DNA of 64,000 nucleotides from Streblospio benedicti (Eukaryota > Annelida > Polychaeta > Spionida > Spionidae): positions 51,224,352 to 51,288,351 of the forward strand of contig CM032664.1 in assembly GCA_019095985.1 (NCBI GenBank), given 5' to 3'. Below are positions 22,731-56,219 of this stretch, in pieces. Each line of letters begins with the position of its first letter. The first letter of the stretch is position 1. A program made the translations under genes and the position numbers. The notes under the pieces are model-generated. The model made no database searches. It saw only the letters and a program-made list of their open reading frames with translations, and was not told where the DNA came from.

Positions 22731-22787
<57 letters not shown>
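22731..22787 (+). repeat. (CAG)n trinucleotide tract, about 19 units
   Basis: Perfect AGC/CAG repeat with one final variant (AGA). No flanking reading frame or splice sites support it being coding. Confidence 0.95.

Positions 22788-22790
<3 letters not shown>

Positions 22791-26874: not shown

Positions 26875-26954
<80 letters not shown>
26875..26954 (+). repeat. (CAG)n trinucleotide tract, about 26 units
   Basis: An 80-bp essentially perfect (GCA/CAG)n run, ending in GCGCGG. It lies about 2.3 kb before the receptor's first coding exon and is not in any supported exon. Confidence 0.95.
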
Positions 26955-27059: not shown

Positions 27060-27260
27060 GTTTTTATAGGTATTACTCCATTTATCCAGAGTGTCTTTTC
27101 CACATTACGGTATATTCCTGTGTGTCTTTTTCACATTTCATAGTATATTAGTGTCACATTTCTCTCAGATAATGGTATTTTATGTAACATTTTTCTCAGA
27201 TAGTGGCATTTTATGTCACATCTTTTTCTCAGATATAGTTAGATGGTAGGTCACCTCGTC
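27060..27260 (-). repeat. Inverted copy of the ATATCTGAGAAAA tandem repeat
   Basis: Read in reverse complement, ATCTGAGAAAAA-TGTGACATAAAAT units repeat three to four times, followed by GTGAAAAAGACAC as in the 981-1190 array. The two arrays are 26 kb apart in opposite orientation. Confidence 0.65.
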
Positions 27261-29256: not shown

Positions 29257-29402
29257 ATGCGGAGGTGCGCGGTGGTCCTCGGGGGTGGCGGTGGCACCGT
29301 GGAGGGCGTGCTGCTCCTCATGCTCAGTGTCCTTATCCGCGGCTACAGCCATCAGCTCATCAACGGCACCGTGGAGACGGCGGCAAACGACACTCTGTAC
29401 AG
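29257..29402 (+). CDS. Receptor exon 1: start codon and signal peptide
   Basis: First ATG of the frame used, followed by a Gly-rich stretch (residues 9-13) and a hydrophobic core [13 protein letters not shown] ending at about Gly29, then two N-glycosylation sequons, NGT at 36 and NDT at 44. The exon ends TAC-AG before GTGGGT, phase 2, and so fits only an exon beginning with one leftover base, as exon 2 does (AG + C gives Ser49). Linkage to the downstream receptor exons rests on this phase match, strand and lack of another gene between; transcripts have not been seen. Confidence 0.65.
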
Positions 29403-32400
29403 GTGGGTGGGTGCGCGCTTCTGGGTGGTGATCGCAAATATGCCAGTAGATCACAGTAGTTACATTGGCATTCTCAGTAGTTCGTGGCAAGGGTCCATGA
29501 TTCAAACGCGCATCTGCCTCGCGACCCTGATGGTCTAGGATACAGTGTTTCCAGCAGAAATTAAAATAAAATGACTGGACGTGGACGGAAACTTTGCCAC
29601 CTCTAAATCTGCAATGGCAATTTCGTACACATAGTTATGTCAATCATAGACACATCGCGGTAATTAATACGCACAGAAAGGTATTTCGCGTTGGCAGTGT
29701 ATACATGCCCAGCCTAAGAAAGCTTGGGCGGTGTAGTTGTTGTAATAGTGTAGCTATGTAAGCGTTTGGTATACAAGGTCCATGCCAGCGGTTGTTGTTC
29801 AACCTTCGTGCATATACGAGACTGACGTCTTATTACGTCGACCAAGCCAAGCCGGCCCTCTAGGCAGACGGAATCTGACCGCCTCTCAACGTGTCACGCT
29901 CGACACTTTGACGTAAGTTCATGAATAAATGACAGTGACATGTCCAATGGAGCTCTGTTGCATAACCACAAATACTTAGGTCCAGTAATATACAAGTATA
30001 TGGGTATAGGGGTACACATCAGCAATCTCATATCCCCTAGTTGCTGTCATGATAAGAAAAGGAAAAAAACCCCACCTAACTCCTAAATATAAAATCGCTG
30101 TGAACGTCTGCCCAGAATCCATGTACACGACTAATACGTGACTGAATCCAACTATCGGATTTTATTGCAATCAGCGAAGCCCGGATGTAGTTAAGTGGAA
30201 GCTTTTACTTCAAGAGATTTGAGCTACATGTGTATATATGGTTTAACTTTGCTATCCATGAGACTATTTTGAGAGAAACTTACTGGTAGAGATTTGCCAA
30301 GCTTGTCTACTATTTTAGTTGATTTCTTTTTACTTCGATTACCACACATATCGCACGTGGTAACAACACATAATCCACCAACCTGCGTTAAAATACACAC
30401 CATTGTAATCTTGCCTTTGAACAATGAAACCAATACACGCTTTCTGTCCATCCTAATGATTCTCATTATAGTTAGAGGGCCTCCTCATTACAAGACACAA
30501 AGCCCATTAAGTGCGCAGGCACGTTTCTAGTATCTGGTCGTGTCTCTTTGATTTACGCACAGCCATGGCTGTCTCATGATGAAGGGTGCAGTCGGAAACT
30601 TCAAACGCACCCTCATATTAGCAGCCTCCTTGTCACATATTGCACTTGACTTTCACATCGTCTGTACAGAGATGGCTTAAAGCTAAACAACTGCGGTTGT
30701 TGGTTTGAGCACATGATGGATGATTTTGTCATAGGGTATCACTAGCTTTTATGATAGATAATCATTGAACCAGGCATTTTTTTGTGTAACTCAATAGAAC
30801 CAATTACGTAAGCCTACATTTAATTACCAAACTTGATTGAGAACATTGTGTTCTCATGAACGTATTGGCGTATACTACATACGTTCAAGGGCACGCCTGG
30901 GGACATTGTGTTCTCGTTTTCGCAAAATTCACCGATGACGGTCTGTGATCCAACTCTACTCTCACCGTTATGCCAAGTTTTTAATTCTACTCTCACTGTT
31001 ATGCCAAGCAATATCCTACCACTGTATTGACATAGCTGAAGACATAGCTGCATATGACTTAATCAAGTGGCCCTGACGGGACTCAAACTCACGACCCCAA
31101 GGATGTGAAACCAGAATGACACCACCAATGAGCTGTTAAAAGGTTACACGGACGAACCGTTGTTTTTGTAACCCCCATACATACTTGGTCAGTTATCATC
31201 TCAACCCAGAGGTCGTAGTTTCGAATCCCACCTAATGACGGAATTATTTGGTAGGTCTAATGTTCCAGCCGTGTTAAGGTCCGTGATTCTATGAAACTGT
31301 ATATAATTATATTTTCCCGAAGTTTGCTTGTGAATTCAACTCTACTCTCACTATTATGCCAAGCAAGCTCCTACCACTGTATTGACATAGCTGATACAGA
31401 CATAGCTTCCCTTTGGCTATATCAAGTGGCCCTGACGGGAATCGAACTCACGACCCCAAGGTTATGACACCACAAAATTATACCATCATCCCAAGCAGCG
31501 AGCTGTGATCCATTTCAGCAACCTGAGTGATGACGCCGTGTTCTACCACGCCACGGGGCTGGCGCTGCACCACGAGGAGTCCGTCACGGCGGCGGCGGCG
31601 GCGGCAGTGACGTCAGAGAGCCCGGCGGCGGCGGGTGTGGGTGACGTGGAGCTGTACCCGGCGCCGGACCCGCCGCTCGTGGAGTTCTCGTGCGACGGCT
31701 GCAACAGGTAGGCATGGGGACGCTGCCGGGTGGCGGTGGTAGTGAGAGCTTAAAACAAAGCACAAATGTGGTGATAGTTACAGTGAACATTTAGAGTTTT
31801 GCTAAGTGAATTGCATCGTGGGTTTCACGCCTTTACCATTCACACAGCCTTCAAAATCCGATGTCCATGGTATAAGTGATAAGTAATAAGCCTGAATAGA
31901 TACTGATGAGTGAGTTGAGGCACATTGTTCTTTAATCTTGGAGATTTGCGCACCCATCAGTACACAATTACATTGATGTCAGGCATACATGTATATAACC
32001 TCACCAGGGTAAATGATGTTAAACTGTTGAAATGCAAAAAGTACATGAAGATTCATTGTAACAGGAAGTGTTCATTATATATTGTTTGTTATAGAGATCA
32101 TATTACAATCATGGCTTAAATGTCAATGTTCAATGTATGGGTAAGCGAAAGAAGACATAGACACGCACATGTCATCAGTAATATAATATCAGCCATATGC
32201 AATGTTTTCGTGGCACAAACCAGCTTGAATGTTATACTGATTACTTAGGTTTCTTACCTGCAGCATGAATATTGCACCTCTCATACTCTGAACCAAGGAA
32301 ATAGTGTACATTAACCTGCTGATTTCTCATAAAACAGCACAATAAGTGTGCATTCATTATTATAATAATAGCACCAGGGTAATCATCGATGATAAAGCGT

Positions 32401-35400
32401 AACCACACGTGAGGTGCCAGTCACCTCATAATGTATAATGGCAACAAATGTAAAAATGCTTATCTTATAGAAATACAGAATGGCCTATACGTACTCAACG
32501 GTTTCACATTAGCATAGAAAAATTGCAACATGGATTGTAATGCAACACAAATGCAAAAACATTCCACCCACTAAAGCATTGAAGCCTGAAAACAAATCTG
32601 TGACTCCATTTGTCACAGCTCACAAACATTAAATGCCACTATAGGCTTCATATATTTTCTTGCGTAAACAAATTACCTACCAGGATGTCTACAAACTCGC
32701 TACATTTCGTTGCGGACGATGTTGATTAGCACTTTCGAGCACAGTCAGCGAGTCCCAATGTTTGTTTACATCTAGAGACACACACCGACCTACCGTAGGT
32801 AGGAAGTCCCTGCATTCTGAAGGTCCTGTGTGGGGGGTGGGGTGGGGGTGGGGTGTCCGGGTGTCTCTAGATGTAAAGAAACATTGGGACCCAGTTGCTG
32901 AGCTCGGGAGCCTTATAAATGGCAAAACAAGTAAGTGACAGCCCTTAATTGTGTCTTATACATTACCAACATTATGTTGCCTCACTGCACCAGGCAACTG
33001 GAGCCATTTTACATGGCAGGTCATGATGAATATCAATTTACAGATAAACATTATGTTTAAAAACATGTGACATCCAGGTTAACCGTGAGTCAATATCAGG
33101 ATGCTACATGTACACGTAACGATCGTAGATTGTGTTGTGATGTAGTAAACAAACAAATGCCATTGCTGTTCTTTGTTGTATGAGTCCTCCTATATTTAGG
33201 AGCTTATTAATATCTTTAATGTTCAATCCAATCATTTTGATTCCACCAGTGAGGATGGTAGCCAGCCCATGCGTGGTATTCAACAGCAGTCTGAACTATA
33301 TTAGATAGGGTGCAACTATTGTAGCCCCATAATTCATATCACAGAATCTCCTGATATTCCAATACACAGCGTTAGTGTCCATGTTGTGGCAACCTGTTAC
33401 ATTATAATATCCCCATCATTAACTCATCTCAGCAGATCTATCAGTGGTTTCACTTATTGTTTCAACAATCACCCCACTTCCCTGAAATTTTTGGCCTTTT
33501 CCCCCGCGTCCTTATTTTTTCACCCCCCCCCCCCTCACATCTCACTTCCATATAAACCCGCCGCATGATAACGGCCGGTCCCATTCGGAACCTCGCATGC
33601 TAGTTACAGAAGGTATGATGCGCACGTCACACCGGGAAATAGCTCCATGCGCAGACGACTCGTTAGGCCGCCTTGACCGGGAAAATCACTTTACGCGCAA
33701 GGTCGGCGCTCCATTGTTTGATCAGCGTTCATTAGTCCACATTAGTTCAATAAAACATGATCGTGTGGCAGTAGCCACTGGACATTGCATCGTATAACTG
33801 TTAGTCCATGTATGTAATGTGTGTATTCACTTTACTGTGTGCATCGACACACCATTCACAAATGTTCGATGTCAATTGACAGCAGTGCATGTATTTAGCG
33901 GAGAAAAATGTAACAAAAACATTCATACGACTCATTCATGCGTAATTAACAAGCTAGTCCCTGTAATCACATAGAAAACAAGGGTTGTTGGAGACTACAG
34001 GCATGTTGACATTTGAGTAACGATGCTCAAACTCGTAACTACGGTTGGAGACATGTGCTGTTCCGGTACAAAGCTTCGTTCTCACGGGTTTTCCCATCCC
34101 GAAGAGTGCCTTATCTGTGTATGCAGAAGTAGTGGCTGTTAAAATATTATTTTAAAAAGGTACATTCACTTTGTTTTGCCATTTTCCCAGTATGCAATGA
34201 TGTGGGGTTTTAATTTTCTATATCCATGCTACGGTATAGACACGAATTAGTCACGAATTAAGTGAAGTACCTAAAATACTACCAGCCTATACCATATAAT
34301 ATCAAAACATTTGGTTGAGATTTGATGACACTACCACTTACATTTTTACTTGGTTGCTTTCACCATCACGGGACCTTCAACATGGCGACTTTTCTGTCTG
34401 ACGTCAGGAGGTCTTGGAATTCCCGTCAGACAGCAGATGGAGGAGGGTCGGGGGGATGCTCTTGCCTTGGTTGAGGTTTAGCTGCGGTTGGTGCTTGTAG
34501 ATCTCTATTGCTTCTAAGATCTTCCTTCGGTGCAGCTAAACCTCAACCAAGGCAAGAGCATCCCCCGACCCTCCTCCATCTGCTGTCTGACGGGAATTCC
34601 ATCTGTCAGACGAAGCGCCATGTGAAGTCATCAAGAAAGACCAGAAGAAGTCACTTCTGTTGAAGGTCCCGTGATGGTGACTGCAACGTTAAGTCAATGT
34701 AAAAATGTAAGTGGTAGTGTCATCAATTCTCAACCAAATGGATATTCCTACTACTAAAAACAGTCTTCATAAAGATAATATCAAAACATTGCAGTAATTT
34801 ACATCATGAATACATAAAAATGATGACGTAAGTAATTTATTAGCGACGTGGACTTATAAAAATTGTGAGTTGTGAACCTGTCCGCTATTATTCAGTGTCA
34901 AACCCAACATCAACTATACACTAACACTTTCCTCTCTTTCAAGACCTTGGTTATTCGTGTTTACAACCATCTCAAAGTACAACTTTATCAATTTTTCATA
35001 ATATCCTTGGCATTTGCCTCACCGTGATTGTGTCATGGCGACGTTTATGATACGCCGTTATGTATTTTAAATGACATAGGTGTCACGTGCGAAATATATT
35101 GTTTTAATATCAGTTTGTGATGTTGCTTAAAAGTGAGCTTGTACCGGCAGGCTGAAAAATACTGTGAATATGAGCTACAGGCACCTAGGCCTGTGATTCA
35201 TGTTTGGTGGAACATTGGATGTCATATCACCGTGTAAGTGTGATATAGTGACTCTTACTTTAATGCCAAATGGGCAGTTGAGTCATGTAGCATATGACGT
35301 TTTACATAAACGTCTATTTGCAACGGGCATGTAGTCCCATTACTAATAGAACAAATACACTCTAATAGACGTCCAATGCCAAGCACATTACACGTGTGCG

Positions 35401-38400
35401 TGAAGCAAGGTAGACCATAAATTACCCTGTCTTAACACATTAGGCCTACCTCTTACTCGCTTTCTATCGTGTGATTATCAACTCTGATCTATATCTTAAG
35501 TCACTGAATAGACTATAGCGGGCATTTCTTAAAAAAGAGATCTAGATAAGGAGATCCCCTAACCGGTGGTAGAGCAGGCAGCATCCCATCTCATTTTGTT
35601 CTGTAGATGGTGAGGCCTTCTGAAAATACACGTACATGTACGTACTCAAAATATTTGGTGTGAACATGCCTCAAGTTGTATGTCTCCATATAAGCCTCCA
35701 TGTGCACGCATCCCTGTGTGAGATACACATTTCAATTAATAACTTGGAATCTAAAGCACCTAGAATCATGAAACTTTGGACACATATAGTAGATACAAGT
35801 CTCAAAATGTCAATACATTTTGTGTTCACCGAATTTCAAGATGGTCGCCGTTTTCTTTAGTAATCTTTTTAATTTCATTTCAAAATGATTTCTTCATAAA
35901 CTCCTATGAGTGGTATAGCAAGCTATTTAATGTACAAATTTGTTCAGTAGGTAGTAGGGCATCAGAAAAATACTGAATAGGTGAAATAGGTGTGTGGGAA
36001 CATATGGAAAACTAACTGTTTCCATTGTTTTCTATGTAAGCATACACAATGAAATGGCAAAATACACTTAGTCACAACTTGGCGGATACAACACATAGAC
36101 TCATAAACTGTGTGCTTATTTAGAAGATAATACTATCAAACGTTTGTATGGTTTTGTTTTGATATTTTTGAATATGGCCGCCGTAATTCAAGATGGCCGC
36201 CAATTTAATGTAATACAATGTATGTCTATTATCTCTCACAGAAGTCCTTTGAAATAGGCCATTGGGTGGTAGAACAAGCTACATGTTATCTCATTTTGTT
36301 TAGCAAGTATTCAGGCCTTATAAAACTATGGATATGATGGAATATATTGATGCAAACATATAGAAAGAAAACTAGCTATTTACATGGTAACCTATATAGG
36401 CTTATATATTTTGTGAGGCGAACACTTATTGATAACTTACTTTCAACTACACCTAAATGTCATCAAAATTTGAACATATGAAGAAACTATCAGTATCTAA
36501 ATTTCACTATACTTTGTGATTAAAATCATTCACAATGGCTGCCGTGATTCAAGATGGCCGCCATCTAAAACCCGAAAGTTTAATATCTGTACAAGAAGTT
36601 CTTTAAAAATACCCTAATCAAGAGGTTATTATTGTTTATACCGAAAGATTCAACCTTCCTACACTGGTTTCTAGACATTCATGATTAACACAGTTGCTTG
36701 GTAACCTGAAACCACTCAGCAGATATAGCGAATCTGTCAATGTAACAATATCATAATTTATTCTATGTCATGAATCACAATTCTATATATGAAGACAATA
36801 TGGTGCCCGTGGGTGGCAATACAACAGGAATATCGTCTTGAAAAAAAAAGTGAACTAAGAAACTTCATTTCATTAAATCATATTTTAATAAGAACATATG
36901 TTTCTATAGACTTGAAGTAACAGTGGCTACTGAAAAGGGTCGTACCGTACCAAAAATCAGGGAAGGCAATCCATCTTTTGCAAGGAGCGGTATGCTCACT
37001 TTGTAATGTCACATGCATGACAATAAAACCCAGAGCACTCCTTATTTATTAATAGTTTTTTGTAATAAAAGAGTCAATTTTCGCCCAGCTGCAATCTACA
37101 AATTAATTTCGTGCCCATTGTATAATTGTTTGCTTCTGATGAATGGCAGAAATGAAGAAAATGGAGCGTGTTAAATTGGAAAGGTTTATCATGATAAACG
37201 GACGATTGCATGTGCACATCAAATATAGATGCATTACTTGGAATTGCTGTGAAACGTATTCCAAATGATGTAATATGTCCGCAGATATTATCTGGAGGAA
37301 ATATGTTAATCACGACGTAATAGGTTATGGTATGGATATAAGGCCTCATTTATAGGTACACTATATTTGACAAGCTGATGAGGTCTAATTGAATTGGAGA
37401 ATAGAATGATGAACTATGCGGAAGTTACTCACATCACTGCGACGATTATTACACCAGTCACGGGCAAAATGACCGACGACATGGCGGCTCACACACCGTG
37501 ATCAGCGCCTTGTATGGTCGTGTACACAGCGACGGTGCGGGGGCTACTCGTGCAAGAGACCCGTGTGTAGCTGCTGGAAGGGGGACTTAGTGAGATAATA
37601 ATGTCAATATAACATGAAGTCCATTGCTACTTGTATATACGGAGGCATGAACTGATATAGCATTTCGATGAACTGGCGTATTCATGTCATTCGGGACATC
37701 ATCTACAAAACTAGATTATATAAATTGTTATATTATATAAATTGATTGAGAACAACTCACACCGTCCATTTTTATTTTCAGTCAGTTATCTCCTGACTTT
37801 ATGATTGCTTGCCAAGCCCACAGAGTATGGATCAGAAAAAAACCACGTGATTATGAATCATGCAGGCCATTCCGAGAACAACATTATAGTAATTATCGTG
37901 CTCTTTTCTGTCACAATAAATCAGTTCAATAATGCACATGGCCATTATCGTACTATGGCCGATATTGGAAGAGACATAAAGTACACATACGCCATCCAGT
38001 ACAAGTTCAAGCTTCATGGTTCTTGCATCCAACCCTGCAATAAAACCATGATTTATCAGATGTATTGGACTCCAAATGAGAGCAGTCAGAACTGGATCAG
38101 TTTTGTTATACCACATGCATTTGCATGAACTCGTTTGTCAGCTCTGAATGGTAAATAATGTAATAGTACAGAAATAGTTTACCCTAAAATGTGTTTCTTG
38201 TCTTTTACCTACAATCTGAAAAGTTACTTGTAATGTAGCGCTATATGAAAAAAACACCCAGTGCGGCGGTGATCATTAATTGCAAGTTGTTAGTATCATT
38301 GATACACAGATTGGTTGATACTTGATAGAATGTTCTCTTACGCGTGATCTTGAGAATTAATTAGATGACGGCCTCCATTACACAAAACAAATTACTTTCT

Positions 38401-41400
38401 GTCTAGAAAAAAATGCAACGTGATTTCTACTGTGCTTTCATTCACTGCGTTTGGTAAATACCAGTTATGATATATATCAAATACGTGTCTGCAAATATGG
38501 CTATTAAAACATTTTTCTGTAACACAAGTTATGTGTCAATAACAATTTGCTTAGTACAGTACATGCACCTCACCAAGGGGACATACCACTATTTATGATA
38601 CACCTCACCATACACAACAGTCCACTGTCCTGTGTAAATGTTAGTAGTATATCGCTCCTGGTGAAATTTTCTTGCTTTCCTTGCCATGCTACCACTAACA
38701 TGCATGCTAAGAAGAAAAAAGGTTGCACTGTCAACTCTGAAACGGTGCTAGTGGAATGTAGATGCAGACGGGTACCGGGTGCGTCAAAATACTAGTATGC
38801 TTCCAATGGAGATGACGCCGCCAGTCGCTTGGTCAGCCGCCCGCAATGGCCTTTATTCGGGAGGCAATCTGGAAATGGTCTTATCGTTTTATGCGCTATA
38901 AATATTGAATGGACAATTCCTGATCAAGCAAACAGTGTTGTCACTACGCACAGCCCTAGCCCTCTATGTGGCTCATGTTATGCCAAAGTACGGGAGTCGC
39001 GATGTTAATATTAAGGGGATTGTTGAGCTGCTTTGTATATTCAGTAGGTGTTAAGAGAAGAGATCACAAAATGTTGTCCCTTTTGATTTTCCCCTCTTTG
39101 ATAGGCACGTGTATATAATTCTTATGTTCGCAAATCGTGTTGACTATTCTTCAAATTATTGTTTTTTTGAAAATATTTTGAATGTTACTGTTTTAACCGA
39201 AAAGCAAAACGTTTAGGTTCATATATGAGAAGTTAGAGACACCATAACCTTTTCAAAGAAAAGGAGTCTTTGTCTACTGATAATTACCCGTGTCGTCATA
39301 CCCTTCAAATATCAGAAATTGATATGTAGAGAAAGTTATAAAGCATTTTACATTTTGACATGGGGATCAATACGAGATATTGGCAATGACCTACAATATA
39401 TTTTCAAATTTATGTTAAAAGTTTTTTTTTTATAAACATCGAACATGAAAAATTAAGGGTGTGACAACTTAGATGAATATTTGAAATAAATATTTTGTCT
39501 GTAACTCTATATTTATTTGTGTACATATAGTTTCGTGTGTATGTTCATCAACGAGTCATACTCAAATATATTTTGTAAAAAAATAATGCGAAGTAGTTTA
39601 GAAGTTATCTACCATTAGGATATAGGGTGTCTATATCCGTATTTTACACATATTTGGAGTAATGGGCATGAACAAAATTCAGTGAGCTTCCGCCTTAACT
39701 GTCATAGAAAGCTTCAGTGAACTTAGATATGTGTCTCGGTGTCAGTAACTTTATTCATTGCCATCTAGGCGATGCAATTATTGTATTTTCAACAACAATA
39801 TCATAATATCAATTGTAATTGATAACAATATCAACAACAAAACAACAACAGATCATTGGACATTCATCTTTTCTCTGTCTGGAGGATTTTCTAATCCAAG
39901 AACACAGTTTGCATGATGTTCGAGATTTTCTGTTTCTCTTTCCCCACGGAGTTGTTACAATCCCAGAGATATACATCTTATAGTATTTACAGGAGAATTT
40001 GATTTTCTCATATGCTTACCCCGAGAGCAGGTCCCAATTGTGTTAACAATTGATACAATTTGTGCATCACGCAACCCAACTGCATATACAGCCGTCTCAT
40101 GGAAATCTGTACAACTCAGTGTGTGGAACATTAGAACATATGATGTAAAAGGAGGCAACAGACGATAATGAATAAAATCACATAGAGCGATTGTGTGTCT
40201 TTGAAAAAGAAATGAACTATTGTACTTCAAAAAAGACAGAATGATGATTTGGAACGTCTGTGTTTGACTATCAACACACTGATAAAAAGGTGGGAACATA
40301 TATTTACATTCATTGAATCAAGTTCTGACTAGTGTATACACCAGTGATGCATGATGGGGTAGTTACAGCTCAAAATAACAAAATCATTTAAAAAATCATA
40401 ATATCACGGGAAAGACAATATGCTCAGAAGACGAATATTACTAGTAATCTGCACGATGATTCACGTAACGCCACAAATCGCTTACTAAGAAATATTCATG
40501 CTGTATAAGCTTCTACAAAATCAGCAGATACTCCCGTGAAAGTCCAGCAATTTAATAAAGTGATGGATTCGTGTTCAAATTAAATAGTAACAATGAACAA
40601 TGGATTATGTCAGTGTACATGTTTTAGTGCGAATACACGATGTTAACATTGAGGCAGAGTGCTCACGAAGAAACAATTTAAATTAAAAGATGATATTTAC
40701 TCCTACGTATTAGAACACAAGACCGTATCAGGTCCCTATTTCAGACGTATGCTCGTCGATCGGTTCCTAATTCAGTTGAAATAAAATTCAGTTACAATAT
40801 TCACGATCAATCACGTTTGACGCTGGTTAATACAGACATAGGAAGAAGTAAAATGACAAGTGCATGTAATACAATAGCGTTATGGCAGATCTTGTGGTGT
40901 ATGTTTTTCAGGTACGTGTGTGGAAGGGGTGGGAGCCTATCGAACCATGTGAACCTCGCTTTTAGAGTAGACATCTCCACTCTCCACTGTTACTCTTGTG
41001 TGGGTACGAGCGTCCAACAAAAGAAATTTTGCGCACCTTGGATATACATTAAACACAAGGTTATCAAACGCTTGAACAACAAGATTTAATTCTACAGCAA
41101 CACACCCACTTTCAATTTGGTATATAACAGAGAATTAAAAAAACCGCACAGTTTAAGTTTCCATTCCACGTATATGTCATTTAGGCTTAGCCATAGCTTG
41201 ACACAATCATTACTTCATTAAAAAGCTTGACGTAGAGAGTAATATAACAGTGCTTTCATTTTCCTTAGGTAAATCCCCATCAGTCTGAGAGAAATCTTTT
41301 ATGTCAGAAATGAAAGAAACATACTTAACCCATCATGACATTTCATGATAACAATTTGATTTTGAGAGTGTTACTTTCCTTTTAGCATTATAATCTCCTA

Positions 41401-44400: not shown

Positions 44401-47400
44401 CCAATATCCTGTAACTGAGAATTTAAGTGTAAAATATACGCAGCCGACTGTACAAATCAGCTCGTATTAGATTGTGTGTGTGTGTTTTTTTTGCTCAGGC
44501 GAACCCCGACACTAATGCCTCTAATGGCTTGATAGGAAAAAGTCGTATGGTAGGCCTAAGCATGACCCAAGCGAAAGTAATGCGGGTGCCGATTGGCAAA
44601 CCTGGACCAGTTTACTTTTTATTCTTTGAAAAACCCTAGATATGTTGGTATTGTGATTTGGCTATTTATTGAATTTGCATAGTTGAACTATCTTTATTGA
44701 AAAAGAATATGTATGCTAGTATTGCCCATTCATTAGAAAATAACTATCTTAGAAAATAAAAATACTTGTACAGAGTTGGTACGTTGGGGTTACGGGAAAA
44801 GGGTATGTTGCATTACCGTTTATATAAAAAAAAGAGAGAATTGGTGCAGTGGTTAGTTGTGCCATGTATCTTGCAAAACAAAGAAGCCTAGTAAAGTAAA
44901 GTCAACTGACTGCAATTGATGCAATACAAGCAAATGCGAACTCTATTGCAGAAACCATTCAATAAGTCAAGAAAGGGCGCCTTTATGGCCCGCTCAGTTG
45001 CCCTGGTTATAAAGCGGAACGACTTGTGCTCTATCCGGACTAAACTCGGGTTCTCGGCGGTCTATACTGTTGTAGTTGGTGTGGTGTACTGACCGGCACA
45101 TCAACACAGGTATAATGACCCAAGATGTGCGTCACAAAACACTAGTGTGTGCTGCGTAATCCTAGTGCTCTGAGGAATACAACGACGTCTTGTGTCACGA
45201 GAGGTTTTGCTCTTTAGGGGTTCAATTGCCAGTCATTCTTTGTGATAACGTAAATATGACTGCCCATTATACTCGATTTCCTATTAACCATTATCCTAAG
45301 AGACCACTGCAAACCATTGTAAACTGCATTATTGTTCAATTGATAACCGTTACTGACAGAGACTTTGCTCATGTAGTACACGTATTAAACCATGGGTCTC
45401 AATGACATGTCATTAGTGTAAAATATGTGTTAATGTGTGAAGCAGTTATTTTACGTGATTTGATTCTTCCATTGGGCCTGATATTGGATAACAACATTTA
45501 TCATCACAAAATAAGTGGGGGCCAATCTGTGTTATATGTGCGTTTATTACACACTGGCGCCAATGATGAAACCCAACCCTCGATCTTCAAGAGTTAGAAG
45601 TCCTGTAGTTTGCTTACCCTTGTACAAATACATGATCTGTACATCCATACGCACAATTACCAAATATTAGCACCGCAGACATCATGTTAACTGTCTTTTA
45701 TGCGTACAGATATCTCAGCACCAAGCATCACACCGTCCTGCACCAATCACTGCCTTGTCCTGACACCCGCCCAGTAACCACACCGGGGAATACCCACATC
45801 TTATTGCCAATAATCACGCCTCCTGCCACACAAGGATTAGGCGTCTCTTGGATCAGTGCCGACGAGTGAACGGTAATGTGTGGGTTAGTGGAGCCACTTG
45901 GCTAAGTGAGCTTAACTTCACGTCTCACACATCATTGTCTCATACTAGCCCTCATAAGGAAGCTCAACTTAATTATTCGTAAAAAAGGTCTGGTGAAGCA
46001 TCCCATTTTCATAAAGGTTTAGCCTGATAAATCCCGGTCACCACCGTTGCTGGTCGAGGGTTTGAAACATTTGCATAAGACTGCTGCTGTCTGGGGATTC
46101 TGTATAAATTTTGTTTTGGGTGGCAGACGACCATTTGACCCACACAACCCCTTGTAATTTGTCTGCAGCTCAAAATTTACTTTCCCGCCTGTGTTTTTGG
46201 AGGTTTTCGTGGGGTAGAATGAACGAGAGTCACATTATACGGCGTTAATAATTTAAAGTTCTATTTAAGTGCTTTTGAGATTGAAGATCTGCGAACAAGT
46301 TATGATCTGTCCTCCATGATGACTTCAGCCCTGTGAGACTAAAACACGGCCACTGCTGTCGTTGTCCGTTCTGTCAACGATTTGTGTGTGCACATATTTT
46401 GCCTTACCAAGAATGTGTTTATGTTATATTATCGAAGTTCTGCTATCGGTAACCACCGGTCCAGTCCTTATGTATCTATGCGTATGGCACCATACGAAGT
46501 TACACGATGACATTGGAGACCATGCCATAAAACCCCATTCAGTTAAAGGATACAACCTTGTCATCCCTAACCCATATGCCAAATAGCAGTAAATCCAAAC
46601 ATAATCAGAACAAGGCCAACTTAACACCAGCACCCCCGAGAAATATTCAAATAGCCTCTTATTTCATATCAAAAGAGCGTCAGACAAAAAGAGCATCACT
46701 ATATTAACGCTCGGGGGCGATAATACGAGGAGTTTTATGATGATGATGGCCATTAACACGTGGATTCTCGTGCTCTATTGTACAATAGAGGGCTCGTAAA
46801 CTAGCGCGGGTGTAGCGCGCTGTGCCATCAATCTGTGCTGCTGTCTAAACACTTGTTCTTAGCAGACTCATTTATAAATGTGCGTGAACATTGACCACTT
46901 GAGAAGGGACTTTTGCAGTTGGGGGCGGCATCATGACATTATGATTAGTTTTGTCAGTTACAAAACCAATTCGTGCTCTTAAATCCTGATGAATCACACA
47001 TTAGAACATAAGATAACCAATAGTTTTCTAAAACAAATTGCCATGAGTACAGTTCTGTGGTAAATATACCTATACTCAATTTAATAGGGATTATTGACTT
47101 TGAAGTTGCCGATAGTATGGCAGTGACTCCTATATGGTTAACGTTATGTACAGTTGGTTGCCCATTAATTGAAAATAAAAGAGCATAATAAAGTTGATTT
47201 TTTCTGGACAGTGATCTCTGTAACTCATGTTTAAAGCCCACCATAGAGCCACCAAATGTCATTACGTTTTCAGAAGTTACCCTCTCGGGGATACTCATTG
47301 TCAGCCAGACTTAAAGGCATACCGTTAAAAAATAGCGTAAAGCCGAGTTCATGAGCATTCAGAAGATTTATAACGGAGGTATATATGGCGTTATCGTCCT

Positions 47401-50400
47401 ATCTAAACGAATTCAAGTCTATTACAAATGTAGTTCCCCATTCCTGTAGATGATGTAAGTGTTCACTCGGGTGTTATATTCCAAATACAAAGTCGCTTGA
47501 TCAATTGTATGAGTTAGTCTTTAGGCTGATCCCTTTTATAAAAATCTATCAACCCAGGACCTCATTGTTATGAGTTATATAGCACCAGTGTAGAGTAATG
47601 ATAAAACGTATTTCTACCCTATAAGAACATTTCCCACGTGCACGAGCTAGTAAGAGGTCCTCATACCATCAATGATTGAGCCACTAACCTCATTCCAGGA
47701 AGTTTTCACACAGACACACATAGAAGCAAAATTATGTAACATAACGCAGGATCAAGCATGATAACACTGACATTGCCCTTCTTTGCGAAGACCGATGCAC
47801 ACACTACTTCATGCAATCAATACAATGAACGGTGTATTGCAGGACCGAAGACTGTGCATAATCACCATAGTGCTCTGTCAATTATACCGTATACTGCAAT
47901 TCTCATCTCCTGGCCAGTTAATAAACTCACAGTGCTAATCATCATAGAGAGGCCATTGTGTTTCCACAACTAGAGTCACACATCCAGATAATAGGAGTGT
48001 GGATTTTATTGTTTGCCTAACCCACATCCATTGACCACGACACAATACCCTCGAGTGGGGGTGCCTTTCCTGTTAGCACCACTTCCATGGATTCTGGCAC
48101 TCAAAAAGCATTAGGAAATTATTAGGGCGTTGGTATCAATCTCACAGCTTTCTTCGATTTGTATAGAACTAGCCAACGTTATACTGCTGACCGACGAAAG
48201 TGATATAGAGAGAATGATGCAAGTTCATTGATTATGACCTACTACAACTGATTTTGTGACCAAGGTGTTGTAGTGGTCACTTTTGCTATTAGCCGGATGT
48301 GTTAAACGACTGTTTAATGTACACCAACAAGATATGAAGAGTAGAGTTTCCAAGGCCGCCCTAATGTATCCTCAATCCACTTGTGACTATCACACATGGA
48401 TGAAACACAACGCTGAATTCGGCGTGAGGGAATAGGTATGTGTTTATATCCTGTATTATAGCACGGCAGCTGGCCGACATTGCGTCCATAGTCCACGCCC
48501 TAAGTGCAAGTGCACTTACATATTAATCCGCGTTGGTGGGAAAGCAAGTCAAGTGTTTTATATGCTAAAACCATTCTATATCCACACACTGACACATTTT
48601 ACAATTGTCAACATGGGATTGCTATTTACACAAAAGTATATATTGCCACCTCAGGTCGATGATGTCGGCGGAGAAGCTGCTCATCAAGGGCCTCATGCAG
48701 AACTACGACGACATCGGGCGCAACGGCCGGCCCGTCTACAACATATCGCAGAGCATCGACGTCGAGTTCGGGCTGGGCCTCATCCAGATGGACCTGGACG
48801 AGTACTACAAGATCCTCAAGATGAGCATGTGGAGCAGATACGTGAGTCAATCATTGCTTGGGTATTGCTTGGTCATTGTAACTTGTTCGTAAAAGATTAT
48901 ATTTTCCTCTCATGGCCCTTTAGTCTGGGGAACATGATGACTTGCACGTCCATCAAACTGCAGCACATTTATACATATAGATATATATTCATGTATGTGC
49001 ATGCGGTTCATTACCACATATATTTTATTGCATATGGTAATGTGCATAATATAATAGTAAATTATAGTAATATACATACTCCTTCGCCACTCCCATGGTG
49101 CAGAGGGCCATGGCTGCATGTGCACATGTAATTGCATCTTGCACTATCGCCTCTGCAATGCTCTTAAATGCTGCCTACGCTGACACCTTTAAAGCTTAAA
49201 AGCTGGATCATGGAGTGACTCGGGGTTGTCGCATGCTGAGCATAAAAGCTGAGGAATATGTCACCGAGTCTTCCTTCCACTCTACCGTCCTTTCGTGTCA
49301 CATTACCCTGATTGCCAGCGGGCACCACTGGGTAATGGAAAAGGCGTCATCCTTGCCGTGTGTACGTTCGTCACGAGGCCATCAGAGTGGCACATTGTTT
49401 CTACCCATCTGACTAGCTGGGCCAGTTCTACATATCACTGGTCTATTTTTTTCTAGTGCGTCCCATATTTTTGGAAATTTGCAATGTCACCACAACTGCA
49501 ATGTCAGTTGATGCTGTAAACTCTACAACTCACTGCTCTATTTGTCTGACCTTAAAACAAGTGCATTCTAATGAAAGTCTAGGTGTATGTTATGCATGGA
49601 TTATGTTGTTGCTTTGGGGAAATTGTAGCAATTACTTGTATTTAAAAGACAATTATCTTCTTCAGGCAGCGGATATCTTTTCGGCACTGTACGATACACA
49701 CGTATTTTCCCTCTGGAAACGTTGCTTATTAACTTCGCCTTTATCAAGCAGAGACACGTAGGCGTACTAAAGAGTACTAAGCTCCACAAGGATTCCAAGA
49801 CTGACAAATTGCAATTGTCATTGTCAAAGATGGTGTCGAAATGAAATTGTGGATGGGCGTTGGGAATGAATCTTAAGCACTGTCATTTCAGCATGATTGA
49901 ACCATTGCGCACTGACAATAGGGAGACGCAAAGCTTCCTGTTGCTAACGCGAACTCCAAATTGTAGGAATTATGATGTGATTAAAACAGAAATGAAATTT
50001 ATGCGCATTCATCTAAATGAGACACACAAAGACACACCAGTAATTGCACATTATCTACACACATTGAACCTACAGGTCCAATTGAAAAGACATGAAATCA
50101 GGGGTGTAATTGGAACTCCTGAACGTGTAGGGCGCTTTCATAACATGACAATTCAAAATGTAGCTGGCTATTGTGAATGCTCATGCTCCATGCCAGATTT
50201 CGCCTACGCAGCAACAGCACAAGACTTAGACAACCAAAACGTGTGTCTCGCTTGGAATTTTAAATAACGATGTGCATAAAACACGCCCGTATTACCACTT
50301 CCCCTGTAAGTCGTCACATGCAACTGGCAACATTACTGCTGTAATAAATGTGTTTCATCATGTTTGTCCATTCTGCGAGATTGCGCCGTCTAACAGCCTG

Positions 50401-53400
50401 GGCGGTAAAGCGCACTCCCGGTTATTGCAAAACTCTCAGTAAGTGGTCGTTACCCGCACGAGTCCAAGTGTGTATCCTCATTTACTTCGCATAATCTTGT
50501 TCTTAGTGCTGTGTGTTCCTTCCTGATATTCTTACTTGCATATATGTATGTTCCAGTTGAGTTTCTTGATAAATTAATATGGCTATGATGAGGCTTCGCT
50601 AATGGGAGCCCCTCACTGAAGACCATTTTCTTTATTTCCTTTTGGTGTCCCAAACAACGAGCTTTTTATGTATATTTTTATGTAGTTTTACTTGATTCAA
50701 CAGTGAAACAGTGTTGCCAGTAGAGTAATTAGCATATCAAACAAGTAAGCAAACCTGCTTCTCCCCACTTCAGAAATGGCGGGACGAATACCTTCGCTGG
50801 GACCCGCTCAAGTTCAACGGCGTGGAGAAGATCCGCCTGAACCCCGACCTGGTGTGGGTGCCGGACATCATGCTCTACAACACGTGAGTGCTGCAAACAG
50901 CCACTGCCTTGTTCAATGTCTGTACTTCGCCTAGATATACGTAACTTGATCAGGCACTAATTTGTATCGTAGATAACGTGTTTCGCTGTATACAGATTAT
51001 ATGATTAGAAGCTACCAATGAGATTTATATTTTATTAATACTTTCCGAACGTTCAGTCTAATATTTTTCTATTTTCTCAATGTTCTCAAATGGAAAACTA
51101 TTTTTCATATATAAAATGTTTTCAATTATCACCCAAGAACTCCTACACCTTATCAAAAATCATTCACACACTTTTATCGTATTGTGAATGTCTTCAAAAT
51201 ATTTACAGAATATATAATCTGCAGTATAATGCAGTTCAAAGGAGTAAGGGACAAAAATTTGAAACTTTAAAGAACGGTACACTTTAAACCGTAAATCGTT
51301 ATAAAGGCCTTCCGCCTGACATTACGTTAAATCTGACACCGTAACTACCACCTATTTGTACTTGTACATGTACATGCGTGGGCACAGACGTTGCCATTTG
51401 TGAAAATAGTTGGCTGTTGACGTGCATGCTATACATTAATTTATGCTTACGCAACAAACTACTAATTTTCACATAACCTCTAGTATCAAGAGCGCCGCCC
51501 TTTTCACTGGCATTTGGCCATCGCAGGCCTTTGTCATCGCCATCTTGGCATATCACCCCGCTGTGGCACCGCTGCACCCGTCAGACACCCTGACATTTGG
51601 GGCCAACAACTGAAGAACCCCACAATGGCACTTTAATATATAATGACAATGGTGCCGTACTTTGTGCTCTGTACATCACAACATCTTCCCCTTACATTAT
51701 GTTTGTGTTGTTGTTTTTTCAATACCAGAAGTGGGAGCGCATTTTCAAATGGCAGACTACGCAGGAAATTATGTAAACCAAGACCTTTCACGCTGGATGG
51801 CTAGTAACGGGTTTACTTTTTTTATTTTGCTACACAGCCGATTGTTGCTCACATTATAGCCATCATTCAGTATCAGTTCAAATACAAATCCACGAAAACT
51901 GCTAGTCAGGCGGGGGTCGTCCTTTGCTGGACGTCTGTCTGCGAATATGCTACAAGCCAGAACACGACATCCGCCTTGTCCATGGCACTTCAATTACTTC
52001 TGTGTGTACATCTACATGGCCTTTATATGGTACATAAAAATCTTCTTGGTCTAAATTTAAACATGGTGTGTAAATTTGAATTTATAAAGTCTATATTCTT
52101 TTGTAAACGAATCTCTTTGTGTTTAATGCAAGAAAAGTCTCTTTTCTCTGATCACAAAGAGACCACATCGAGTACAATAATTTGCCAGGAAAGAAATACA
52201 AATGATTATTTATTGCTCATGCGCTTTACTTGCAATTCTTATAGACATTAGCCAACGAAGACACAGGGGAAAGAAATATACCTCTAACTGTCAACACCCA
52301 TTCACCACAAATTTTAAAGGCCCTTTCATCAATTGATGTAGAGATGTAACTTACGAGCTGTGCAATAGGGAACTGCTCTGCTGCTGCGCCACAATACAAA
52401 TTGAAGCTGTACATTACTGGTTATGTCCCGTTTTGTAATAAATAAGACTCCCGGTGAATAGGACACAGGCGAAACACGATGCCGGCAAAAAAACACAAGT
52501 TTTCATATGAGTGCAAACGGGCCAACATGCTGTGAACGCCACACAAAATGAAGCTATAAAGCACTTGTTAAGTTTGTTGTGGCCATGGACATAGTTTATG
52601 TGTTAATTATTTGATGAACTCTGTTCAAGAGCTTGATACAACTAGCCATAAGACACACTGCTTTCGACAACAAGACAGTGAGTTGTTACAAGTCAATTAT
52701 CACATATGTCTAGTAACGGCAGTTAGCCTTAATAATGTTGATAAAAAAAACATCACCATCACCACCACTTGTCTACGTTCGTGCCCCGCTAGCGCCGATC
52801 CGTACGACCGCGCCCGCAACGTGCTGGCCATCATCAAGTACGACGGCACGGTGCTGTGGGTGCCGCACCAGATCTTCAAGTCGTCCTGCTCCATCGACGT
52901 CACCAACTTCCCCTTCGACAACCAGACGTGCCACATGTGGTTCGGCTCGTGGACGCACAGCAAGGTACGGCGGTAGCCGCGGAGGCCCGCGGTCTGTAGC
53001 CACTGGTTTGCAAAGTTTGATTGCAGACACTTTTAAGAGAGGAGGAATATGTTATGAATCATATTTGGCACTTTACATGATGATGCTTTGGGAGCTTGAA
53101 TCTATATGATACATACACTCTGCTAGTAGTGTAATGTTTTAAGCTGTTGAGCTCGTTTGCTTAAAGCTTATGGTGTCATGTTTTACAAAGATATTCTCAA
53201 AATTTATTAAACATCTATTGAAAAACAAATTCCGGATGACGTTGTGTAGTTGTTTTTATTCACTTAGTGTATAATTATAATTTGCATGTTTTTGTTAAAG
53301 GTAACTAAGCCACAGCTTTACATAGTACATCATCTTCTCACCTACAGGATGAAGTGGATGTGCACATGGCTTTCAAGGAAGGAATCGACCTCTCCACCTT

Positions 53401-56219
53401 CCAGTCAGACTACAAGGTGGGTAGTTGCAGCATTGTGCGCGCATATCTTAAACTCTCATATACATAGTATGTCTGAATAGTACAACTGGCATGAAGTGAA
53501 CATTGTGTCAGTGCTGAGAAGCTATGACCTTATTTTATCAGTGATACAAGGAGAATTGCATACGTGCCAGTAAAACTGGGGTATCAACTTTACACAAGTT
53601 TTATACTTTCAAGTACTGTTGGCGCTTGAGCACTTATATACACAATCCAATGTACATTGCATCCTAACAGTGAATGACTGCATCTTCAAATTCAAATTCA
53701 ACTTGATCCCTAGCTATGAAAAAATAATACATCCGCATTCCACTAGCGTCATGCAACCTCTAAACGCACACGTTTACAAAGACCACTTCCCTTCCATCTC
53801 CAGGAGTCGAGCGAGTGGGACATCACGGGCACGATCGCCGAGAAGCGCGTGATGCCGTCCGCCAACGAGACGCCCAACTACGCCGTGCTCACGTTCCAGC
53901 TGAACATGAAGCGCAAGCTCACCTTCTCCTCGTACATCCTCACACTGCCCTGTGTCTTCCTCGCTTGCCTCACGCTGGTCGTCTTCTGGCTGCCGCCCGA
54001 CCGGCCCGACAGGACGGCTCTCGGTGAGTGCATGTAGTGGGTCACTGGTGCACATAGATTTTCTGAACTGACGGTATAGGGGTGAGGGGTGCAGTAAGAG
54101 GATTTTATTTTCTGCAAAGGCTTATGGAGATGCCAATAATAGCATGGTAATAACAGTTATTTGTTCTTACTGATATGGAGGGATGAGAGTGGTATGAATA
54201 ATGGGATTTTGTAGGTTTGCAGTTCCCTATCTTGCTTGCCCATTGTCATAGTTCTGTCATGCAAACTGAAAACTATTGCTGGTATACATCCAACCTGCTG
54301 TTGATCTACCTTTCTCAAGACCATGTGCGGGTCCTCTCATTTTGTCACGATAAACTAATGATGTACTGATATGTTTACAGCAATGAGCATCTTCGCCAGC
54401 TTCCTGATGCTCTTGCTCATCCTGGTTGAGTCGTCACCCCCTACTGCCTCATCGGTACCCGTTCTAGGTAACTTTGCCAGGATATTGTCGCACAACATCT
54501 ATTTATGTGAAATAGTCCGTCGATCGAGATGGAGATTGGCAATGGTATATTACAACTTCTACCCTATGTAAATTCTTACATTTCAAAACAGGCTTTCATA
54601 TTCTTCTGGAGAAGCCACTTTCATGTAGTCATTCACATAGTCAATTACAACAAGACACAAGCAGACCTTCTGGAATGACGGGCTGATCTAGAGCATTAGG
54701 AGGAAGGGCGCGTCGATTCAGTGGAGTCTAGCGTGCGTTGTGATAATACTGTCACGCATATGACTCTGGGTTCAGCAGAAAGGGAATGCTTATGTTTCAA
54801 AACGAAAAATACGTAGATAAATTAGTTTGTTTAGTGTTAAGAAGACCTGTTAATATAACAGTTACGGTGAGAATACTCATCAAACCTATGATCAAATAAC
54901 ACTACATCAGAACTCTCCTAGTTGAGACGACAAGATGATACTCATTTCAATATCCTGTACGGCCATCGGCCCTTTCGGAAATAAAGATTGAAGTATAAGG
55001 TTTCTCATGCCGTGTTTACTTACAACATATTCTGAATGTACAATAATTTGTATTTATGTGATAGCTATGCTTTTTTTCCAGGCGTGTACTATTGTTTTAA
55101 CATGGTGATCATCATGCTGTCTGTGTTCCTGTCCTCTCTCGTCGTCAATATCTGCCGCGCTGGGGAAAGTGGGCGACGGGTCCCAAGGTGGCTCAAGTTT
55201 GTGAGTATTTCTCACACTTATTCAAGCTCCTATTATATAGTTGGCATTTTGTCCGGATCGAGAGTCATAAAAAACGATTTTCTAAGGAGAAAATATATTG
55301 TTGACATATCCATCAGGTACCATGTCATCCAAATTATTTTGTTTACCTGCCGTCCAACTAGCAACTGATTTCAAAGCAATGTTTCAAATTGATTATTCGG
55401 ACAAGCTGTCTATCTCACCATGATATACATTGTACTTGTAATCATTGTTCTTTACTTCACTCCCAGATCACACTACGCTGCCTTTCGCGTTTCCTGCTCA
55501 TGCACCAGAACACTCTGTACTTTGATGCCGACATTCACAACCTCAATTACAACATGGAATCTGCAGACAGACTTGACAGTGTGACACCGCTCTTCACCGG
55601 GCACCCCATTCTACGCCGGCGCAGCAACCGCAGAGACACAGTGCCAATGCCTCAGCAGCGCGACAACAACAATGGTGCATCGACGTCATCCAACCAGTCT
55701 CAGACCTGGCTTGACTGCTTTGGTACTAAGCAATACCGCCGCAGCAGCAGTGAGGAGTACTTCGAAATGACGCACAAAGAAGGTATCAATAAAAAACAGC
55801 TGCGGACAAACGGGTCCGTATCAAACCCAGGGAGGGCAATAAATGATAACTACTTAGTGTCACAGCCAGCAACATACCCACTGCTCAAGCGCCAGGATAA
55901 TATGGACCACAATGGCCCTAACATCGGCTCCACCTCCAATGGAAACTTTGACCCATCGTCATCAGTAGACACAGATGATGTGAGCGGTAGTGGTTGCTGT
56001 GGAGCAGGATCAGTGGATGAGCAGCTCTGTGAGATGAAAGATTCTCTGAGGAGTCTGCGGCAAACATTGGCAATGCGAGTTGGTGCTGACTCGGCACTGC
56101 GTGGACTGTGCCGCCAATGGAAGGATGTGGCGCTAGTACTTGATCGCTGCTTCTTCATCATGTACATCATCATCATTATTGTGTCACTGTGCGTGCTGTT
56201 CCCCAGGCCAAAGTACTGA
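29257..56219 (+). CDS. Cys-loop (nicotinic acetylcholine receptor-like) non-alpha subunit, 10 coding exons, 683 aa
   Basis: Exons: 29257-29402, 31519-31707, 48655-48841, 50774-50883, 52793-52964, 53348-53416, 53804-54023, 54381-54467, 55082-55200, 55467-56219; every junction is GT-AG and in phase. Order: signal peptide (1-30), extension (31-115), ligand-binding domain from about 116, M1 (333-354), M2 (361-381), M3 (395-417), a long cytoplasmic loop (about 418-650) and M4 near the C-terminus. The Cys loop is C243-C257 with 13 residues between, including FPFDNQTC. Trp176 (loop D), Trp202/Tyr209 (loop A) and Trp264 (loop B) are present; loop C has no Cys pair. Such proteins form pentameric ligand-gated channels at the cell surface. 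Lack of the vicinal Cys marks a non-alpha subunit, so a partner is likely needed to bind ligand. Ligand and ion selectivity are not determined by the sequence alone. Confidence 0.9.
30950..31515. mobile_element. SINE cluster abutting receptor exon 2
   Basis: Two copies of a unit running from TACTCTCACTGTTATGCCAA through CCACTGTATTGACATAGCTG to GTGGCCCTGACGGGA and CGAACTCACGACCCCAAGG lie at 30983-31112 and 31337-31474; a third short copy starts at 30952. In reverse complement they carry a tRNA-like B-box, GAGTTCGATTCCCGT. Between them, 31190-31240 is a + strand B-box segment (TTTCGAATCCCACC) like the one at 14.28 kb. The segment CCCAAGCAGCGAGCTGT (31491-31507), shared with 14170, ends only 11 bp before the exon's splice acceptor. 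Confidence 0.7.
31519..31707 (+). CDS. Receptor exon 2: Ala-rich N-terminal extension
   Basis: 63 codons in phase 2 on both sides, from [14 protein letters not shown] through a six-Ala tract (GCG repeats), [18 protein letters not shown], to FSCDGCN. GC content far exceeds the surrounding DNA. The donor CAGGTAGGC is good and the acceptor CATTTCAG has a modest pyrimidine tract derived partly from SINE sequence just upstream. The next exon must start with one base of a split codon, which exon 3 does (AG + G gives Arg112). Such an extension is not usual in the family. Confidence 0.7.
32741..32903. repeat. Foldback element with GT-rich loop
   Basis: Arms of about 41 bp: AGTCCCAATGTTTGTTTACA and TCTAGAGACAC pair with GTGTCTCTAGATGTAAAG and AAACATTGGGAC in inverted order. 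The loop contains a 13-bp palindrome CTACCGTAGGTAG and a GGGGTGGG-rich strand. MITE-like. Confidence 0.75.
34296..34790. mobile_element. Penelope-like element fragment in head-to-head inverted copies
   Basis: Arms at about 34309-34486 and 34530-34741 pair over roughly 180 bp, sharing for instance CATCACGGGACCTTCAAC, CCGTCAGACAGCAGATGG, CTTGCCTTGGTTGAGG. Around the small loop, + strand reverse complement (34500-34530) reads [14 protein letters not shown], the end of a Penelope-like GIY-YIG endonuclease (REAIEIxKxxP). 16-bp direct repeats ATAATATCAAAACATT at 34296-34311 and 34775-34790 flank it, consistent with a target-site duplication. As in the 1.9-kb copy, one arm meets the duplication directly, and the other leaves a 35-bp gap. 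Confidence 0.75.
35565..36620 (+). repeat. Three diverged tandem units of about 355 bp
   Basis: Units begin near 35565, 35908 and 36264, each with GG/AGTGGTA(T/G)AG-CA followed by a CTCATTTTGTT-like stretch, and each ends with an AAGATGG(C/T)CGCC motif at 35838, 36190 and 36551 (spacings 352 and 361 bp). Divergence is high, so the array is old. Non-coding and inside intron 2. Confidence 0.7.
44034..44055 (+). promoter_or_regulatory. Paired CACGTG E-boxes
   Basis: TCACGTGA occurs at 44034-44041 and 44048-44055, separated by six bases, in an almost palindromic block. Next to it (44105-44150) lie TTAATTCACAATTAAAT and CTAATTGG, homeodomain-type words. Such a cluster would suit an enhancer for bHLH-zip factors, but it has no experimental support and could be chance. 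Confidence 0.3.
48655..48841 (+). CDS. Receptor exon 3: N-terminal helix and first beta strands
   Basis: Encodes [15 protein letters not shown], the alpha-1 helix that opens the Cys-loop receptor extracellular domain, the sequon NIS, then [14 protein letters not shown] and MSMWSRY, the first strands. The exon starts with one base of Arg112 and ends in phase 0. This is where ordinary family members begin shortly after the signal peptide, which measures the length of the extra N-terminal segment. Confidence 0.9.
49860..50267 (+). other. 135-codon open frame inside receptor intron 3
   Basis: The longest unexplained open frame on this side of the gene, [15 protein letters not shown] to [13 protein letters not shown]. 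It is on the same strand as the receptor, has no recognisable domain, no signal peptide, and average intronic base composition. I think it is chance or a diverged mobile remnant. Confidence 0.2.
50774..52964 (+). CDS. Receptor exons 4 and 5: loops D, A, Cys loop and loop B
   Basis: 50774-50883 gives [11 protein letters not shown] and [12 protein letters not shown] (loop D Trp176, loop A). 52793-52964 gives [24 protein letters not shown], the Cys loop (C243 to C257) and GSWTHSK with Trp264 of loop B. The junction splits a Thr codon (AC + C). GC-rich third codon positions contrast sharply with the intron. Confidence 0.95.
53348..54023 (+). CDS. Receptor exons 6 and 7: loop F, loop C and M1
   Basis: 53348-53416 gives [18 protein letters not shown]. 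53804-54023 gives [29 protein letters not shown] (loop C, with Asn-Glu-Thr sequon and no cysteines) and M1, [15 protein letters not shown] to VVFWLP, with the family's conserved Pro-Cys. The alpha hallmark YxCC is absent, and loop C retains one Tyr (317) near the second aromatic position. Confidence 0.95.
54381..55200 (+). CDS. Receptor exons 8 and 9: M2 pore helix and M3
   Basis: 54381-54467 gives M2 and the M2-M3 linker: [20 protein letters not shown]. Setting the conserved Glu381 as 20', position 9' is Ala370 rather than the usual gate Leu, 2' is Ala363 and -1' is Asp360. 55082-55200 gives M3, [19 protein letters not shown], then [11 protein letters not shown]. The acidic -1' and 20' positions favour cation permeation by analogy only. 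Confidence 0.9.
55467..56219 (+). CDS. Receptor exon 10: cytoplasmic loop, MA helix, M4 and stop
   Basis: A single 251-codon exon: [15 protein letters not shown], a Ser/Gln/Asn-rich disordered loop, then [17 protein letters not shown] and [15 protein letters not shown], the amphipathic MA helix and pre-M4 signature (family: EDWKYVAMVIDR), followed by M4 with five Ile in a row, ending PRPKY and TGA. The loop has short potential Ser/Thr phosphorylation sites. Confidence 0.95.
   Translation: MTLRCLSRFLLMHQNTLYFDADIHNLNYNMESADRLDSVTPLFTGHPILRRRSNRRDTVPMPQQRDNNNGASTSSNQSQTWLDCFGTKQYRRSSSEEYFEMTHKEGINKKQLRTNGSVSNPGRAINDNYLVSQPATYPLLKRQDNMDHNGPNIGSTSNGNFDPSSSVDTDDVSGSGCCGAGSVDEQLCEMKDSLRSLRQTLAMRVGADSALRGLCRQWKDVALVLDRCFFIMYIIIIIVSLCVLFPRPKY

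Follow-up and report, generated by a model that had tools for sequence, protein, structure and literature searches.

The window (the whole 64-kb stretch of DNA that was analysed) contains a single Cys-loop receptor gene on the forward strand (29257-56219), with ten exons and GT-AG boundaries at every intron. Splice sites were read by eye and the exons were joined by script, giving a nine-exon model of 620 residues; addition of a tenth exon (31519-31707) extends it to 683 residues with the phase preserved and the join in frame, which is exactly the length given in the first-pass annotation. Exon 1 (29257-29402) carries the start codon, the signal peptide and the start of the N-terminal segment and ends at a GT donor. 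An in-frame stop at 29131 lies upstream of the start codon, and residues 5-23 form a signal-peptide-like hydrophobic segment. Exon 3 (48655-48841) extends from the N-terminal helix to loop D (Trp171) and is matched by Pfam PF02931 and, in tblastn, by human alpha-7 and alpha-4. Loop A is encoded by the 110-bp exon 4 (50774-50883; tblastn E-values of 1e-7 to 8e-10 against human subunits), and loop E, the Cys loop and the loop B Trp by exon 5 (52793-52964; tblastn E-values down to 6e-15), while exon 6 (53348-53416), covering the loop F region, is placed by splice sites and frame. Exon 7 (53804-54023), again recognised by tblastn with human subunits, encodes loop C (53849-53881), M1, a Pro-Asp-Arg filter and M2 through 3'. 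Exon 8 (54381-54467) encodes M2 from 4' to 20' and the M2-M3 loop, exon 9 (55082-55200) M3 (55087-55152) and the start of the intracellular domain, and exon 10 (55467-56219) the intracellular loop, MA helix (56016-56147), M4 (56148-56201) and the stop. In the 620-residue model the PF02932 match reaches residue 610, and MA and M4 align with those of alpha-4 and alpha-6.

The probable exon 2 (31519-31707) encodes a 63-residue Ala-rich N-terminal insert, running from phase 2 to phase 2 between a TTTCAG acceptor and a GTAGGC donor, and its GC content is 0.72 as against 0.44 in the flanks. It is plausibly real on splice sites and coding-like composition rather than on homology, and may be optional. 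It precedes the ligand-binding domain, away from the pore, and M2 is the same in the model that omits it.

An intron interrupts M2 at the 4' codon, the remaining residues being encoded by exon 8, of 87 bp. In size and boundaries, this exon and the 110-bp loop A exon presumably match exons 8 and 4 of CHRNA7. A single very large exon 5 is found instead in the vertebrate genes for alpha-2 to alpha-6 and beta-2 to beta-5 (PMC6354393). Its nine introns and intron-rich layout set the gene apart from the intronless copies that arose by retroposition in molluscs. Insect alpha-6 genes have TM2 residues in an exon 8 of their own, which is alternatively spliced (PMC2064938). A comparable alternative exon restoring Leu at 9', where this gene encodes Ala, was considered and rejected: tblastn with the gene's own protein revealed no second copy of the M2 exon in the window, a search that a strongly diverged copy could escape. 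The same search found no tandem or neighbouring paralogue in the window.

Several other features were observed upstream of the gene. An open frame on the forward strand (7014-7226) encodes a collagen triple-helix repeat (Pfam PF01391, E=8e-9) and is probably one exon of an unrelated upstream gene. Two minisatellites (982-1193 and 27143-27235), situated 26 kb apart on opposite strands, share a near-identical unit of 29-31 bp (TATCTGAGAAAAATGTGACATAA and its complement), which suggests a repeat carried by a mobile element. On the reverse strand, a 181-codon open frame (2047-2589) containing CGIIYEVNCPQCQETYFGETGRTL resembles by eye the GIY-YIG end of Penelope-like retroelements, and a 241-codon open frame (1105-1827) resembles by eye a HARBI1-type transposase remnant; the Pfam search gave no match for either. 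A perfect GCA repeat of about 26 copies (26875-26954) is open in three frames (poly-Ala, poly-Ser and poly-Gln) and a second array, of AGC, is seen at 22731-22790, with no gene evidence around either of them. Rfam and tRNA scans returned no matches.

The architecture of the predicted protein, with a signal peptide and four transmembrane segments, is that of a Cys-loop pentameric ligand-gated ion channel, and Pfam searches over its full length detected Neur_chan_LBD (PF02931, E=9.8e-52) and Neur_chan_memb (PF02932, E=1.5e-25). The Cys loop (52887-52931) spans C243 to C257 with 13 intervening residues and includes the FPxD motif. The nAChR-like fold recognised in the first-pass annotation is thus borne out by the spliced model, in which the 13-residue Cys loop, the MA helix and M4 all occur, as does a Trp in each of loops A, B and D. 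The nearest solved structures are nAChR alpha-6, alpha-4, alpha-3, beta-2, alpha-7 and muscle subunits along with 8bx5, an 'acetylcholine receptor' which we take to be Alpo4; 5-HT3A follows after these. The bit scores against PDB (236 for alpha-6, up to 232 for alpha-4, 202 each for beta-2 and alpha-7, and at most 155 for 5-HT3A) are a similarity ranking and not a tree. Within the core that could be aligned, the protein is 36% identical to alpha-6 and alpha-4, 34% to alpha-7, 33% to beta-2 and 26% to 5-HT3A. For these comparisons, the reference sequences of alpha-7, beta-2 and 5-HT3A were checked against PDB chains, those of alpha-7 and beta-2 being identical over the full query, and the alpha-4 and alpha-6 sequences were taken from the PDB alignment. 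No GABA receptor, glycine receptor or other anion channel occurred among the best 60 PDB matches, and no relatives were found in viral contigs, prokaryotic genome contigs or plasmids. On these sequence comparisons, the protein is an nAChR-like subunit and not a GABA, glycine or 5-HT3 receptor. The gene is a divergent member of the very large known invertebrate nAChR-like family, and not a new kind of protein.

Much of the classical binding site is recognisable. Loop A (WVPDIMLYN), loop B (GSWTHS), Trp171 of loop D and the second loop C Tyr (Tyr317) are retained, so that four of the five aromatic-box residues (loop A Tyr, loop B Trp, second loop C Tyr and loop D Trp) are in place and the first loop C Tyr is lost. 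Instead of YxCC, loop C reads S310-A-N312-E313, with Ser310 for the first Tyr and Asn312-Glu313 at the positions of the vicinal Cys, which upholds the earlier assignment of the subunit as non-alpha. At the tip of loop C (53849-53881), an N-glycosylation sequon, NET, begins at the first vicinal-Cys position (Asn312); if used, it would hinder the classical principal binding face. The retained residues suggest a subunit able to form a complementary face, though no standard principal one. The loss of Cys-Cys and of the first Tyr, together with the NxT sequon at the same place, counts against the reading preferred below, and the loss of a principal-face loop C could equally be read as the mark of an orphan, non-cholinergic subunit responding to another ligand, like the cephalopod chemotactile receptors and, as is thought, Alpo4. 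Alpo4, also devoid of the Cys pair, is unresponsive to acetylcholine and serotonin, and terpenes activate the cephalopod receptors (PMC10338036). We nevertheless regard an orphan role as unlikely, as four of the five aromatic-box residues persist and a non-alpha subunit with alpha partners requires no principal face of its own.

In the pore, the protein departs from the reference subunits. In the numbering of the 683-residue spliced model, M2 has Asp360 at -1', Ala363 at 2', Ala370 at 9' and Glu381 at 20', precisely as first annotated, and the 9' codon is GCC (54395-54397). Alpha-4, alpha-6, alpha-7, beta-2 and 5-HT3A, the five reference subunits in our alignment, have Leu, the classical residue, at 9'. 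An error in the M2 register was also considered, and is ruled out by the alignment of M1-M3, which is free of gaps against the PDB chains of alpha-1, alpha-6 and alpha-7. Positions 8', 11', 12', 13' and 14' are changed as well with respect to the reference subunits, and the remodelled M2 has Phe8', Phe11', Leu12' and Met13', with Leu16' and Ile17' present. Two base substitutions separate a Leu codon from one for Ala (CTN to GCN), and since the rest of M2 is remodelled too, the 9' Ala is not a point error; the changes at these five positions, along with the two-base change at 9', indicate that the pore was remodelled as a unit. The roughly 19 kb separating exons 1 and 3 (introns of 2.1 and 16.9 kb when exon 2 is included) might raise the suspicion of a decaying or non-functional copy, or of Ala9' as an assembly error. 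However, all exons are open and GC-rich relative to their flanks, the splice sites are all canonical, structural residues are retained throughout and the replacement of Leu took two base changes, so we consider such an explanation very improbable.

The selectivity filter is a hybrid, Pro(-2')-Asp(-1')-Arg(0'), with a further Asp at -4'. Sequence features of cation channels are seen in the acidic -1' residue (Asp), the hydrophobic 13' residue (Met) and an M1-M2 linker of the same length as in alpha-7. Judged from the residues present, with acidic rings at -4', -1' and 20' and a hydrophobic side chain at 13', the pore is probably cation-selective, and Asp at -1' is expected to preserve this selectivity (PMC9874803). 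Schistosome nAChR subunits with SDR and GDR filters may likewise remain cation-selective, as the charge is kept (PMC9874803). Against a cation-selective reading, anion channels share the -2' Pro and the 2' Ala, and Pro -2', Arg 0' and Ala 2' are all known from such channels (PMC4569296). These three residues would suit a member or derivative of the clade of acetylcholine-gated nicotinic chloride channels known from molluscs and flatworms, which has Pro-Ala before M2; Asp would replace the Ala, and the subunit might lend a mixed or altered selectivity to these channels. Pro-Ala subunits of schistosomes and Lymnaea do form a clade within the cation-selective nAChRs (PMC4055736), but the filter here has Pro-Asp and not Pro-Ala. 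Moreover, Asp -1', Glu 20', Asp -4' and Met 13' are cation features, the linker length equals that of cation channels, and acidic residues introduced at -1' abolish anion selectivity, according to work cited in PMC9874803. Membership of, or descent from, the chloride clade appears unlikely to us, though a relation to it is a serious rival reading.

The reading we prefer, and hold to be somewhat probable, is that of a non-alpha subunit of a cation-selective heteromer, weakened at 9' and gated higher in the pore. Such a subunit would co-assemble in a heteropentamer with alpha-type subunits, which would supply loop C and the ligand, and would either form the complementary side through Trp171 (loop D) and its loop E face or occupy an accessory position. 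The negative rings formed by -4' Asp, -1' Asp and 20' Glu, together with Met13', would keep the pore cation-selective despite Pro at -2'. With Ala9', the leucine girdle would be missing from this subunit, leaving Met13', Leu16' and Ile17' as the main closed-state barrier, and Phe8' and Phe11' may pack into the space behind the helix. An upper gate, formed by Met16', is already known from the structure of the lophotrochozoan Alpo4 (PMC10338036). Unless compensated, Ala9' would lower the closed-state barrier, as in engineered hypersensitive Leu9'Ala receptors, and each copy in the pentamer would favour the open state, so that the receptor would be more sensitive to agonist and desensitize more slowly. 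Published work on Leu9' mutants takes the replacement to stabilise the open state, and sensitivity rises with the number of mutated subunits; at this position the effect of Ser is strong and that of Ala more modest (PMC10216253). The earlier expectation that a 9' replacement alters gating agrees with these published mutants. The effect of Ala9' is not directly transferable, however, because the published Leu9' receptors are normal elsewhere in M2 and here 8', 11', 12', 13' and 14' differ.

Comparison with known receptors shows how the gene combines shared and divergent features. With the vertebrate nAChR subunits alpha-4, alpha-6, alpha-7 and beta-2 it shares domain architecture, the C-13-C Cys loop, the aromatics of loops A, B and D, the MA helix, M4 and the acidic rings at -4', -1' and 20' (beta-2 has Lys at 20'). 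The identity is about 33-36%, however, and the differences include Ala in place of Leu at 9', Pro-Asp-Arg in place of Gly-Glu-Lys, Phe at 8' and 11', Leu at 12' and Met at 13', besides a longer loop F, the N-terminal insert and the absence of the vicinal Cys. In oyster, the Cys pair is present in only 33 of the 132 nAChRs, so that 99 of 132 are non-alpha (Jiao et al. 2019, PMC6896357). By the same source, the expanded lophotrochozoan nAChR genes are likewise mostly non-alpha and highly diverse, but many of them are intronless and arranged in tandem arrays, whereas the present gene has nine introns and no neighbouring copy in the window. The polychaete Alpo4 and Alpo3-like receptors are also nAChR-like without the vicinal Cys pair, and in Alpo4 an upper gate replaces the usual arrangement; Alpo4 has Leu 9', Glu -1' and Met 16', as against Ala 9', Asp -1' and Met 13' here (PMC10338036). 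The schistosome subunits Smp_337330 (SDR) and Smp_012000 (GDR) have Asp at -1' and Arg at 0' as here, but no Pro at -2' (PMC9874803). The nAChR-type nicotinic chloride subunits of Lymnaea and Schistosoma share the filter Pro, with Ala beside it where this protein has Asp (PMC4055736).

The M2 motif strings MSIFASF and VESTPP gave no match in a literature search, and no description of a natural Ala at 9' was found in the literature searched. The first-pass annotation proposed that the subunit may belong to a lineage lost in vertebrates and insects. A circumstantial pointer comes from the SDR and GDR motifs ahead of M2 in schistosome nAChR subunits, by which Asp-Arg filters are known from flatworms (PMC9874803). 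Some lophotrochozoan subunits may have similar M2 sequences. If this likeness is right, the gene would be nothing unusual within a lineage for which sequences already exist. A bolder proposal, to which we attach little likelihood, is that of a conserved lineage which fixed the gain-of-function Leu9'Ala change together with the hybrid Pro-Asp-Arg filter; its gate would lie above 9', the receptor would be constitutively primed or very sensitive, and its sequence would be intermediate between cation nAChRs and nicotinic chloride channels.

Hypersensitive nicotinic receptors are often engineered at Leu9'. The value of a natural Ala9' subunit as a test case for the position of the gate and the evolution of the filter depends on conservation of the residue among orthologues and on expression of the subunit. 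With its remodelled neighbours, such a subunit would show pore closure without a leucine girdle in a Cys-loop channel.
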